The translations under genes were made by a program, and so were the position numbers. DNA of 46,714 bases from Clostridia bacterium (lineage in GTDB: Bacteria > Bacillota > Clostridia > Christensenellales > Borkfalkiaceae), in contig JAFTWU010000006.1 of the NCBI GenBank assembly GCA_017465145.1, forward strand, positions 1 to 46,714. The letters run 5' to 3'. This document shows positions 35,426-45,740 of this stretch, piece after piece. The notes under the pieces are model-generated. The model was not told the DNA's origin and did no database searches. It was given only the letters and a program-made list of their open reading frames with translations. The first letter of the stretch is position 1; each line of letters begins with the position of its first letter.

Positions 35426-36778
35426 TTACAATTTAATATCTTTCACTTTTACGGTGGGATTATCTATTACTTGAGTAATTATATTTAAATACTTCTTATG
35501 GAAGTTTGCAACGTCATTTTCAGTAATAATTTTCGTTTGAACGTCGTAAAACATATCAATTTCGCCCGTGTTAACGTCGTAAAGCTGTGCTAGATATGCG
35601 GGCAAAGCGCATTTTTCGTTGCTGTAAATCTTAAACGCAATACCTTTTGGCATATCAAATGGAATAAACGAAAAGGTCAAAGAGTAATAAGTTTCAAGCC
35701 AACTAGAGCGGTAAGTTTTATGTAAAAGCGTTTCAAATTCTCTATCAGGGAAACCTAAGTGGCGGTATAGACTGAACTGTTGAGAACTAAACGCCTTAAA
35801 GTTTTCTTCAAAGGGTGCGCCATAATTAATTTTGGTGTAACAAGCCACGCTTTGAACTTTACAGCCGGCACAGTTCTTTTCTAACGCCGAGCCCCTGCAG
35901 TTATAAAGGGCAAGGGGTAAAAGGTTAGCAGTGTTGTTGTTAATCATCGCTGCGGTAAGGTTACAGGTGTAAAGCAAGAAGGTTGCGGGGGAATAAGCGT
36001 TTTCTTCGCAATGCGTCATAACCTTTTTAACTAGGTCAGCATCAATTTTATGGCAAAAGTCTTTGGTGTCGTTTTTAATAAAGAACATTTGCATACCGCG
36101 ATGGTTGTTTTTAAGTTTCTTTTGCCAAATTTTGTTGTCCGGCCCGTGTAAACCTGCATAATAAGGCTCTGGATTTTCGTTAAGCAAGTCGGTAAAGAAC
36201 TTTAGGTTTTTATCGGCAATTTCCTTGTTAAATTTTCTCTTTAAGTCCTTTTTAACTACTTCTTCAAAACTTGTTGGGGGAGTAGGCAACGGCTTATTGT
36301 TTTTTATACTATCATAAATTGCCAAAAGGTCCTTAAAAATTACGTTAATGCCGTAGATATCAAGAACAAGGTGACAAACTTTTAGAAAAATCATATTTTT
36401 GCCGTCAAAAGTTTTTATAAAGTAAGGTTCAATAACCTTGCCTTTTAAGAATTTAATACCTTTTTTTCTTGTTTTTGCAATAAATTTTTGTTGCGCCTTT
36501 TCCGTTTTGAATTCTAATACGGGAATTTTCTTAACGGGTTTAGCATCGTCGAAATATTGCATAAGTTCTTTCTTTTGCTTAAAGAACTTAATTCTTAAAC
36601 TATCGTGCCTTTCAATAAGCAGGTTAAAGGCTTTCGTCATTAAATCATAGTCGAATTTTTCGTCAAGAGTAACGGACGTTAATATATTTATAACTCTTTT
36701 AAACAGAGTATATTTACATTGTAAATATGGAACGTCTTGCGATGGCGATAACGGGTAAATAGGTTTGTTCGTTTTCAT
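35426..36778 (-). CDS. Stand-alone condensation-domain-like protein
   Basis: A 450-residue protein of the NRPS condensation/acyltransferase superfamily. Evidence is the N-terminal PLSPSQ block (9-14), RHDSLRI (58-64, the C2-type motif) and VCHLVLD at 134-140, which corresponds to HHxxxD. The second, catalytic-type His136 and Asp140 are kept, while the first His is Cys135. Part of the second lobe holds CAGCKVQSVAC. No adenylation, carrier or other biosynthetic genes are near, so it is either an orphan acyltransferase or acts with distant genes. Substrate unknown. AAGGAG precedes the ATG. Confidence 0.75.
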   Translation of the reverse strand: MKTNKPIYPLSPSQDVPYLQCKYTLFKRVINILTSVTLDEKFDYDLMTKAFNLLIERHDSLRIKFFKQKKELMQYFDDAKPVKKIPVLEFKTEKAQQKFIAKTRKKGIKFLKGKVIEPYFIKTFDGKNMIFLKVCHLVLDIYGINVIFKDLLAIYDSIKNNKPLPTPPTSFEEVVKKDLKRKFNKEIADKNLKFFTDLLNENPEPYYAGLHGPDNKIWQKKLKNNHRGMQMFFIKNDTKDFCHKIDADLVKKVMTHCEENAYSPATFLLYTCNLTAAMINNNTANLLPLALYNCRGSALEKNCAGCKVQSVACYTKINYGAPFEENFKAFSSQQFSLYRHLGFPDREFETLLHKTYRSSWLETYYSLTFSFIPFDMPKGIAFKIYSNEKCALPAYLAQLYDVNTGEIDMFYDVQTKIITENDVANFHKKYLNIITQVIDNPTVKVKDIKL

Positions 36779-42150: not shown

Positions 42151-42217
42151 AATATAAAATTTTTGCTAGTGAAATTGAATAAAACGAAGTTTTTTGCACG
42201 ATTTTAGCGTATATTTT

Positions 42218-42260
42218 AACGCCTTTGCGCACTTTTTTGCGTAAAGGCGTTATTTTTTTG
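42218..42260 (+). terminator. Terminator after small membrane-protein gene
   Basis: AACGCCTTTGCGC (42218-42230) pairs with GCGTAAAGGCGTT (42239-42251), one G-T, then ATTTTTTTG. Confidence 0.9.
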
Positions 42261-42320
42261 CATAAACACAATATATTGTGGTTGGAAGAAAATTTTTTTA
42301 CAAAATGTTGTATAAAAGCA

Positions 42321-42349
42321 TTGACAAGATAATACATATATGGTATACT
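42321..42349 (+). promoter_or_regulatory. Promoter of nrdD-trxB
   Basis: TTGACA (42321-42326), 17-bp spacer, TATACT (42344-42349) with extended TGG. No NrdR-type box pair was recognised by eye. Confidence 0.85.
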
Positions 42350-42387: not shown

Positions 42388-44757
42388 ATGTTTCAGGTAA
42401 GGAAGAGAGACGGTGGCATAGTAGAATTCGATATGTCGAAGATTTCCACCGCGTTAAGTAAGGCGTTTAACGCAAAACAGGTTAACTATACTGCTGATAT
42501 TTTAAATATGTTAACCCTTCGTGTAGCAGCAGATTTTTCTAAAAAAATTAAGGACAACGTTATCACCGTAGAAGATATTCAAGACAGCGTTGAAGTTGTA
42601 CTTATTCAAGCAGGTTACGTAGAAGTTGCAAAAAGTTACATTTTATATCGTAAGCAACGTGAAAAAGTTCGTAACATCAAGTCTACTATCGTTGACTATA
42701 AAAAGGTTGTTGACGATTATTTAAAGGTTGCCGATTGGCGTGTTAAGGAAAACTCTACCGTAACATATTCGGTTGGTGGTCTTATCCTTTCAAACAGCGG
42801 TGCGGTTACCGCAAACTATTGGCTTTCTGAAGTTTATGATGAAGAAATTGCAGAAGCACACCGCAATGCAGATATTCATATTCACGACCTTTCTATGCTT
42901 ACCGGTTATTGCGCAGGTTGGTCACTCCGTCAACTTATTAAAGAAGGTTTAGGCGGTGTTCCCGGCAAGATTACTTCTGCACCCGCAAGCCACTTATCAA
43001 CCCTTTGTAACCAAATGGTTAACTTCCTTGGTATTATGCAAAACGAATGGGCAGGCGCACAAGCGTTCTCATCTTTTGATACCTATCTAGCACCTTTCGT
43101 TAAGGTTGACGGTCTTACCTATAAAGAAGTTAAACAATGCATTCAATCTTTCATTTACGGCGTAAATACTCCTAGCCGTTGGGGTACTCAATCTCCATTT
43201 ACCAACATTACTCTTGACTGGGTAGTTCCTAACGACCTTGCTGAAATGAACGCTTTAGTTGGCGGCAAGGAAATGGACTTCAAGTACAAAGATTGTGTTG
43301 AAGAAATGGGTATGATAAACAAGGCGTTTATTGAAATTATGATTGAAGGCGATGCTAACGGTCGTGGTTTCCAATATCCTATTCCTACCTATTCAATTAC
43401 CCGTGATTTCGATTGGTCTGAAACGGAAAACAACAAACTCTTATTTGAAATGACCGCTAAATACGGTACTCCATATTTCTCTAACTACATTAACAGCGAT
43501 ATGGAACCAAGCGACGTTCGTTCAATGTGCTGTCGTCTCCGTCTTGACTTAAGAGAATTGCGTAAAAAGTCAGGTGGTTTCTTCGGTAGTGGTGAAAGTA
43601 CCGGTTCAGTTGGCGTTGTAACTATCAACATGCCCAGAATCGCATACCTTTCTAAAACTGAAGAAGAATTCTACGATAGATTAAAGAAACTTTTAGACAT
43701 CTCTGCAAGGTCATTAAAGGTTAAACGTGATACCATCACCAAACTTTTAGAAGCAGGTTTATATCCATACACCAAGAGATATCTTGGCACCTTCAATAAC
43801 CACTTCTCTACCATCGGTTTAGTTGGTATGAACGAAGCGTGCTTAAACGCAAATTGGGTTAAGAAAGATTTAACTACTGCAGAAGCTCAATCATTTACCA
43901 AGAACGTATTGAACTTTATGAGAAATAAACTTTCTGACTACCAAGAAATGTACGGAGACCTTTACAACTTAGAAGCAACCCCTGCAGAATCTACTTCTTT
44001 CCGTTTAGCTAAACACGACAAGAAGAGATATCCTGAAATTATCACGGCATCTGATACGGATAACACTCCATATTACACCAACAGTTCACACTTGCCCGTA
44101 GGTTACACTTCAGATATCTTCTCTGCATTAGATATTCAAGACGAATTGCAAACCCTTTACACTTCTGGTACGGTATTCCACGCTTTCTTAGGTCAAAAGT
44201 TACCCGATTGGAAGGCTGCTGCAAACCTTGTTAGAAAGATTGCTGAAAACTACAAGTTGCCATACTACACGATGAGCCCCACTTACTCTGTATGTGCTGA
44301 CCACGGCTACATCAACGGCGAAGTTTACGAATGCCCAATTTGTGGAAAGGTTACCGAAGTTTACAGCCGTATTACCGGTTACTATCGTCCCGTACAAAAC
44401 TGGAACGACGGTAAGCGTGCAGAATTTGCAAACAGAAAGGTTTACGATATTGAAAATTCCGTTTTAAACGTTAAAACTCCCGCTTGCGAATGCAAAAAGG
44501 AAGAAAGCGTTGCAGTTGATATTTTAAGCACTCCCATTCTTTTCACAAGAAACGGTTGCCCCAACTGTAAGACCAGCAAGATGATGCTTGATAAAGCAGG
44601 CGTTAAATACGACGTAATAAACGCTGAAGAAAACAAAGAACTTACCGTTAAGTACGGCGTTAAAAAGGCTCCCACCCTTTTAGTAATGGAAGGTAGCGAA
44701 ATTAAGGCTTACGACAACGCAAGTGAAATTAGAAAGTATATCGAAAGCATCAACTAA
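42388..44757 (+). CDS. nrdD: Anaerobic (class III) ribonucleotide reductase with fused glutaredoxin domain
   Basis: Makes deoxyribonucleotides from NTPs with a glycyl radical. An ATP-cone (about 1-95, starting FQVRKRDGGIVEFD) is followed by the NrdD barrel with the RSMCCRLRLD Cys site. The zinc ligands are Cys636, His639, Cys649 and Cys652, and the radical site RITGYYRPVQNW has Gly664. After Cys700/Cys702 (CEC), residues 716-789 form a glutaredoxin/NrdH-like domain with CPNC (724-727) and the cis-Pro segment KKAPTLLV. The frame is open from 42340, but AAGGAGAAGG fixes ATG 42388, giving 789 residues. The activase gene nrdG is not in the window. trxB follows 20 nt later. Confidence 0.95.
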   Translation: MFQVRKRDGGIVEFDMSKISTALSKAFNAKQVNYTADILNMLTLRVAADFSKKIKDNVITVEDIQDSVEVVLIQAGYVEVAKSYILYRKQREKVRNIKSTIVDYKKVVDDYLKVADWRVKENSTVTYSVGGLILSNSGAVTANYWLSEVYDEEIAEAHRNADIHIHDLSMLTGYCAGWSLRQLIKEGLGGVPGKITSAPASHLSTLCNQMVNFLGIMQNEWAGAQAFSSFDTYLAPFVKVDGLTYKEVKQCIQSFIYGVNTPSRWGTQSPFTNITLDWVVPNDLAEMNALVGGKEMDFKYKDCVEEMGMINKAFIEIMIEGDANGRGFQYPIPTYSITRDFDWSETENNKLLFEMTAKYGTPYFSNYINSDMEPSDVRSMCCRLRLDLRELRKKSGGFFGSGESTGSVGVVTINMPRIAYLSKTEEEFYDRLKKLLDISARSLKVKRDTITKLLEAGLYPYTKRYLGTFNNHFSTIGLVGMNEACLNANWVKKDLTTAEAQSFTKNVLNFMRNKLSDYQEMYGDLYNLEATPAESTSFRLAKHDKKRYPEIITASDTDNTPYYTNSSHLPVGYTSDIFSALDIQDELQTLYTSGTVFHAFLGQKLPDWKAAANLVRKIAENYKLPYYTMSPTYSVCADHGYINGEVYECPICGKVTEVYSRITGYYRPVQNWNDGKRAEFANRKVYDIENSVLNVKTPACECKKEESVAVDILSTPILFTRNGCPNCKTSKMMLDKAGVKYDVINAEENKELTVKYGVKKAPTLLVMEGSEIKAYDNASEIRKYIESIN

Positions 44758-44777: not shown

Positions 44778-45695
44778 ATGTACGATATAATCGTTATAGG
44801 CGCAGGCGCGGCGGGTATGACTTCCGCGCTTTACGCTCTTAGAAATAGTAAAACAGTTTTAGTATTAGAAAGCGAAAGCTTAGGCGGTCAAATCGCAAAC
44901 AGCCCAAGATTAGAAAACTATCCTTCTATAAGGGCTATTAGCGGTGAAGAATTTGCCGACAACCTTTACAACCAAATTATCGACCTTGGCGCAGACTTAG
45001 AAATTGAAAAAGTTGTAAAACTAGAAAAGGGTGAAGATAAAATTTTCACCGTTCACACCGAATACAACAAGTATCAAGCAAAGGCAGTTATAATTGCCGC
45101 AGGCGTTAAGCACAAACATTTAAGAACTAAATCTGACCGCGACGATTTAGTTGGTAAGGGCGTATATTACTGCGCTATTTGTGACGGTGCTTTCTATAAA
45201 GGTCAAGAAGTTGCCGTTATTGGCGACGCAAACACCGCTTTACAATATTCACTTTTATTGTCAAGCTATTGCAAAAAGGTTTACATTTACACCTTGTTTG
45301 ATAAATTCTTTGGCGATAAGGCGCACGTTAAAGCGTTATTATCTAAAGAAAATATTGAATGGAGACCGAATACTAGCGTAACCGATTTTATCGGCGAAAA
45401 CGAACTTACCGCTATCGAATATAAGGATGCAGACGGCAACATTAAAACGCACGAACTTCCCGCAGTATTCGTTGCAATCGGTCAAGTTCCCGATAATAAG
45501 GCGTTTGCAGATTTCGTTGATATCGACAATATGGGTTATATTATTGCCGATGAAAACTGCAAGACCAAGACGGAGGGTTTATACGTTGCAGGCGACTGTC
45601 GTACTAAAGCCGTTCGTCAAGTGGTAACCGCAGTTGCAGACGGCGGTATTGCCGCAACCAACGCGTCCCTTTATATCGACAGTTGGGAAGACTAA
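44778..45695 (+). CDS. trxB: Thioredoxin-reductase-like flavoprotein lacking NADPH motifs
   Basis: A 305-residue low-molecular-weight TrxB-type protein. The FAD site GAGAAGMTSALYALR (8-22), the redox pair CAIC (132-135) in YYCAICDGAF, and the FAD-tail motif GLYVAGDCR are intact. The NADPH domain is unusual: the GGGxSA loop reads GDANTA (149-154) and the HRRxxxR phosphate-binding motif reads YTLFDKF (171-177). Clostridial ferredoxin-dependent or donor-unknown thioredoxin reductases show similar losses. It is co-transcribed with nrdD, whose C-terminal redoxin domain is its likely substrate. The gene name marks the family, not proven NADPH activity. Confidence 0.85.
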   Translation: MYDIIVIGAGAAGMTSALYALRNSKTVLVLESESLGGQIANSPRLENYPSIRAISGEEFADNLYNQIIDLGADLEIEKVVKLEKGEDKIFTVHTEYNKYQAKAVIIAAGVKHKHLRTKSDRDDLVGKGVYYCAICDGAFYKGQEVAVIGDANTALQYSLLLSSYCKKVYIYTLFDKFFGDKAHVKALLSKENIEWRPNTSVTDFIGENELTAIEYKDADGNIKTHELPAVFVAIGQVPDNKAFADFVDIDNMGYIIADENCKTKTEGLYVAGDCRTKAVRQVVTAVADGGIAATNASLYIDSWED

Positions 45696-45710: not shown

Positions 45711-45740
45711 TTTGCCCCATCGTAGCGGTGGGGCAAATTG
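45711..45740 (+). terminator. Hairpin after trxB
   Basis: TTTGCCCCATCG (45711-45722) pairs with CGGTGGGGCAAA (45726-45737), loop TAG. The stem is strong but the T-tail is poor. Confidence 0.7.

Follow-up and report, generated by a model that had tools for sequence, protein, structure and literature searches.

The question raised by the nrdD gene at 42388–44757 (789 aa) is whether its product, an NrdD joined to a redoxin domain, draws its reducing power from formate or from protein thiols. The reductant of NrdD decides whether an anaerobe makes DNA precursors without formate. This fusion is the only ribonucleotide reductase (RNR) that we found in its own genome, and Blautia is among the named gut genera that carry it; moreover, a donor fixed to the enzyme, together with a probable recharger in the operon, provides a compact comparison of formate with thiol within one polypeptide. 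The original prediction, made from the letters of this DNA, suggested that the enzyme is reduced by protein thiols from the tethered donor. The window, that is, the whole stretch of 46,714 nucleotides that was analysed, is the entire contig C6 of a Clostridia bacterium genome of 1.51 Mb with a completeness of 94%. All features lie on its forward strand unless otherwise stated.

Counts out of 81 refer to the window plus loci L002–L081, and those for trxB adjacency and nrdG2 to L002–L081. The wider sets (120 proteins, 137 upstream regions, 89 TrxB homologues and 16 unfused loci) hold some genomes twice, and several of L083–L109 are the same contigs as L002–L081. L001, L082, L117 and L119, being the window itself, were left out, with L082 retained in the NrdR-site count; L103 (in-frame stop) and L133 (cut) were also left out. 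L066 is fused and carries CPKC, and neither it nor L103 counts as unfused.

The fusion gene and its redoxin domain

The open frame and its Pfam and NCBIfam matches define a protein with an ATP-cone (42394–42663, residues 3–92) [PF03477, 81.9 bits] and an NrdD catalytic domain (42748–44445, residues 121–686) [PF13597, 631.6 bits, over cut-off]. The top NCBIfam model [NF006126, 1135.1 bits, over cut-off] spans residues 2–688, which places the redoxin outside that model. By its domains, and by a glycyl-radical motif close to the C-terminal end of the core, the product is a class III RNR, and redoxin and RNR subunit are joined in one polypeptide. An in-frame ATG also exists at 42340; since it lies directly 5' of a −10 hexamer (42344–42349), and the codon at 42388 is preceded by AAGGAGAAGG, we favour the latter as the start. 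An artefact of assembly or reading frame can be ruled out, as CPxC occurs inside the open NrdD frame at all 80 of the loci L002–L081. The full-length AlphaFold model (61-row alignment) has a mean pLDDT of 82.2 and is weak in the finger-loop region, where the blocks of residues 371–400 score 67, 55 and 38.

The redoxin domain (44533–44754, residues 716–789) was delimited from Pfam, AlphaFold and conservation. It carries CPNC (44557–44568, C724/C727) and cis-Pro762 (44671–44673), as had been predicted for the region following the glycyl-radical site. The Pfam Glutaredoxin family [PF00462] matches residues 718–763 at 29.9 bits, and the search of the C-terminus that the prediction had called for gave 34.1 bits with the final 90 residues on their own, against a cut-off of 22.9. 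Modelled by itself (76 residues, 29 rows) the domain reaches a mean pLDDT of 95.6, with elements in the order beta-alpha-beta-alpha-beta-beta-alpha of the thioredoxin fold, on the presence of which the original prediction had staked itself; in the full-length model its blocks score 84–92. Against solved structures its profile matches protein disulfide oxidoreductase, glutaredoxin-like proteins, thioredoxins and NrdH. Both cysteines and the cis-Pro are kept at 81/81 loci (CPNC in 80, CPKC in one), and among 120 proteins of the wider set, which is partly redundant, the motif is CPNC in 117, CVNC in two and CPKC in one. Fold and conservation together rule out a chance CxxC in a random extension.

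The domain passes the Pfam Glutaredoxin cut-off but falls under that of each of the 13 NCBIfam models listed for it, among them that for NrdH [TIGR02194, 26.6 bits, cut-off 85.75]. The glutathione-binding signature consists of TVP and GG-D; read by eye, the domain has APT and no GG-D. Judged from the scores, "glutaredoxin" is a broad family name only, and the TrxB-like neighbour described below suggests chemistry of the thioredoxin or NrdH kind over a glutathione-fed one.

Core and redoxin are connected by a flexible linker (44449–44526, residues 688–713) which contains Cys-Glu-Cys and of which residues 696–710 have pLDDT values below 50 in the full-length model. Among the 120 proteins the linker measures 16–71 aa. 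Cysteine pairs serve as shuttles in class I RNR enzymes [PMC5704485], and by analogy the linker pair is a possible electron shuttle. Such a role cannot be general, as just 56 of the 120 linkers hold CxC or CC.

Active site

The original prediction did not describe the active site, which is of the NrdD2 type. Structure alignment places the beta-A active-site cysteine at Cys175 (42910–42912), present at 81/81 loci. The finger-loop motif MCCR (43525–43536, residues 380–383) aligns with SCCR of Thermotoga maritima and is kept in the window and all of L002–L081, and in 119 of the 120 proteins of the wider set, the one exception, MYCR, being without one of the two finger-loop cysteines. Glu529 (43972–43974) aligns with T. 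maritima Glu495 and is likewise found at 81/81 loci; in other solved structures the position is Leu (8p23) or Tyr (9d3x and T4). From the alignment, Glu529 is presumably the NrdD2 glutamate. The glycyl-radical site, Gly664 within RITGYY (44377–44379), was located by alignment and is kept in 81/81.

NrdD2 is defined by a third active-site cysteine and an active-site glutamate, with a methionine in some members [PMC4493059]; sequence alignment finds both cysteine and glutamate in the fusion. These two residues have been tied to the use of thioredoxin [PMC4493059, PMC9669993] and the finger-loop methionine to formate chemistry, while enzymes with methionine plus the double cysteine appear equipped for either reductant [PMC9669993]. 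MCCR and Glu are also found in 17/17 unfused relatives, which indicates that this active site needs no tethered redoxin.

One relative (L160, G192:C7, 450–3743) has an intein-like insert of about 400 residues that interrupts RSMC/CCR at the catalytic cysteine, and in G113, G121, G221, G245, G269 and G290 the match likewise breaks in the finger loop within a long open frame. G182 and G256 carry NrdD relatives of 46–47% identity in 941-residue frames, longer than most other unfused proteins.

The trxB-like gene and the probable operon

A trxB-like flavoprotein gene (44778–45695, 305 aa, CAIC), absent from the original prediction, starts 20 nt past the nrdD stop. Its product is the sole credible TrxB of the genome (281.9 bits, next 99.5), and scores under the cut-off for an NADPH thioredoxin reductase [TIGR01292, 343.45]; GDANTA replaces GxGxxA and HRRxxxR is missing. 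This is common at the examined loci, where 75 of 89 TrxB homologues are without HRRxxxR and 44 also without GxGxxA. PDB entries that we take to be clostridial FFTR scored 97–115 bits against the protein, compared with 178 for its best PDB match. The loss of both motifs, which serve to call NADPH-type reductases [PMC10880999], suggests a donor other than NADPH and is compatible with a ferredoxin-dependent TrxB, though the FFTR entries are not its best match; reductases linked to NADH and others independent of NAD(P)H have been described [PMC5627308].

Within L002–L081, trxB lies directly 3' of nrdD on the same strand at 61 of the 75 fused loci having at least 1100 bases after nrdD, the other 14 having no adjacent trxB. 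Unfused loci with as much downstream sequence number 16, and not one of them has trxB in that place.

Putative control signals, also new to this analysis, surround the pair. Upstream is a terminator-like hairpin of 15 pairs with a T run (42217–42252, a consensus match; the region holds nine such sites against 4.7 in shuffles), and a second follows trxB (45711–45737, also by consensus match). Between the first hairpin and nrdD there is an NrdR-box-like palindrome, ACACAATATATTGTGG (42266–42281), the sole match in the window at no more than two mismatches where 0.13 would be expected. A weaker palindrome read from the sequence, TACAAAATGTTGTA (42299–42312), is centred 32 bp from it, and a predicted sigma-70-type promoter, TTGACA(N17)TATACT (42321–42349), follows. 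The promoter agrees with consensus at 11/12 positions and is the best of 15 sites, a number near the shuffled mean of 12.4. Of 137 upstream regions from fused and unfused nrdD genes, 100 contain an NrdR-like site matching at least 13 of 16 positions, compared with 1/137 after one mononucleotide shuffle per region. The genome encodes NrdR (194.3 bits, cut-off 124.65). With hairpins on either side, a predicted promoter and a box for a regulator that the genome possesses, the pair looks like an nrdD-trxB operon, probably under NrdR control.

The rest of the genome

NrdD gave one match in this genome, the only one to any RNR; no class I or II large subunit was found in it, and at 94% completeness a second RNR might be missing. 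The absence of nrdG, from which an origin of the activase elsewhere had been proposed, is true of the window alone. An NrdG2 is encoded on contig C12 [TIGR02495, 204.5 bits, cut-off 131.15], so that the genome supplies an activase for its class III RNR and activation is no mystery. At 61 of the 80 loci L002–L081, whose flanks are of uneven length, nrdG2 is near nrdD. The fused domain is the sole PF00462 match in the genome, which also encodes one separate thioredoxin (86.8 bits) and one enzyme resembling pyruvate formate-lyase (PFL; 679.3 bits), beside the gene of which lies a match to the NrdG2 model under its cut-off (84.5 bits).

Distribution and history

An even draw over the phylum gave 299 genomes at least 90% complete, with mostly no more than three candidates scored in those having more; 12 of the 299, the present genome included, match through the redoxin. 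Two others, G125 and G176, have close relatives without it, and in G202 the match ends at the contig end. The query with the redoxin peptide, from which the best 80 of 591 relatives were kept, is no measure of frequency. Named carriers among the matches listed include Blautia luti, Ruminococcus turbiniformis and a Faecalibacterium sp.

In a quick LG+G4 tree of 84 thinned rows, in which long branches meet at the outgroup, one side consists of the seven unfused proteins whose identity is about 55%, with a support of 100. The other side holds 75 fused proteins, with L131 and L132, which are without the domain, nested among them. One gain and two losses would be the simplest account of the fusion's history. 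A relocation of the redoxin in the two loss lineages was rejected, as neither of the PF00462 matches of G125 and G176 looks like the lost domain: the only one in G125 looks to us, presumably, ArsC/Spx-like, and that in G176 lies between genes that we take to be murB-like and mreB-like.

A phage origin of the fusion was considered and set aside. One unverified "Bacteriophage sp." record of 57 kb, obtained from human faeces [L159, MT835493.1], matches the fused NrdD at 76.7% over residues 1–787; this record is probably a bacterial scaffold.

Formate or thiols

We consider it quite probable that the enzyme is a thiol-dependent class III RNR of the NrdD2 type with a built-in redoxin, recharged by the TrxB-like flavoprotein of its operon. 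What we computed is the fold, the residues and the order of genes, with the conservation of each; every step of electron transfer we infer. By homology, NrdG2 encoded elsewhere would make the glycyl radical on Gly664. Turnover would then oxidise Cys175 and a finger-loop cysteine to a disulfide, as in NrdD2 enzymes, and the tethered redoxin of the same or the partner subunit may reduce this through CPNC. Gene order suggests that the TrxB-like flavoprotein recharges the redoxin, and the box and the nrdR gene that NrdR probably controls both genes.

The tethered thiol donor of the original prediction has in its favour the third cysteine and the glutamate, the trxB gene 20 nt downstream and the conserved CxxC and cis-Pro. 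That RNR, PF00462 match and credible TrxB are each the only one of the genome is a further point for it, as is the finding that a class I RNR subunit is reduced by the glutaredoxin joined to it [PMC6187632]. Of 21 fused genomes with a completeness of at least 90% and no more than 5% contamination, 12 have no PFL-like [PF02901] match and nine have one, in a tally made by hand from rounded completeness values, with split or interrupted genes in G016 and G049, a gene at a contig end in G055, and in G017 a match (312.7 bits) that may be another glycyl-radical enzyme. The 12 favour thiol use, though formate has other sources. Use of thiols exclusively, however, fits less well with a methionine kept at 81/81 loci and a PFL-like enzyme in the genome, or with two lineages that dropped the redoxin yet keep NrdD. 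The 14 loci lacking an adjacent trxB, the separate thioredoxin, which could serve NrdD, the one MYCR protein and the low model confidence at finger loop and linker also count against our preferred reading.

Formate and the tethered redoxin may both be productive and used according to supply, a proposal which overlaps with ours and to which we give somewhat less than an even chance. Methionine, third cysteine and glutamate occur together at 81/81 loci, in the combination that appears to suit either reductant [PMC9669993]; PFL is found in this genome and in nine of the 21, and two lineages live without the domain. The 12 genomes with no PFL-like match oppose it, again with the proviso that formate may be had otherwise. 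The further combination of a self-contained RNR fuelled by formate or its tethered redoxin with a dedicated flavoprotein that has given up NADPH strikes us as possible but doubtful; if it is right, NADH or ferredoxin would supply the electrons for DNA precursors in many gut Clostridia. The methionine, the PFL of this genome and the double loss of the domain could also mean that formate is the true reductant and that the redoxin merely repairs or protects the enzyme, for instance by undoing wrong disulfides. We think this unlikely in view of the conserved third cysteine and glutamate, the 12 of 21 genomes and the adjoining trxB. Less probable still is that the redoxin serves other proteins and was joined to NrdD for co-expression only: it is the sole PF00462 match of the genome, but a separate thioredoxin exists and the fusion is maintained across the clade with two losses.

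Relation to known systems

Redoxin-RNR fusions were known already, and what is added here is the breadth, operon and active-site context of the NrdD fusion, for which no study appeared among the matches listed in the open-access literature, as far as the available text goes. In Methanosarcina barkeri, NrdD3, NrdH and ferredoxin disulfide reductase are reportedly separate proteins. There too a class III RNR has a dedicated donor of the glutaredoxin-like kind, NrdH, but NrdD3 is without the glutamate [PMC9669993, PMC4493059] and the fusion has Glu529. The NrdD2 enzymes of Neisseria bacilliformis and T. maritima are glycyl-radical enzymes with the same third cysteine and glutamate; they have SCCR without methionine in place of MCCR. 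Their reductants are free thioredoxin in the former and a protein factor of cell extract in the latter [PMC9669993, PMC4493059], and T. maritima NrdD has no fused redoxin (alignment to chain position 645 of 651).

Fusions of glutaredoxin to RNR [PMC6187632] likewise join a redoxin covalently to an RNR subunit. That of F. ignava, an efficient reductant of its class I NrdB (Rozman Grinberg 2018, PMC6187632), is N-terminal on the radical-generating subunit and fed by glutathione, whereas ours is C-terminal on NrdD. That paper names one grx::nrdD, from Lachnospiraceae bacterium TWA4, with no further study of it in the text available. Class II NrdJ likewise has a fused C-terminal redox domain that feeds the active site, between subunits; this is a zinc-finger cysteine domain and no redoxin, and its own donor was not found according to the available text [PMC5704485].

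Elsewhere in the window, the reverse strand encodes a stand-alone NRPS-type condensation-domain protein (35426–36778) [PF00668].
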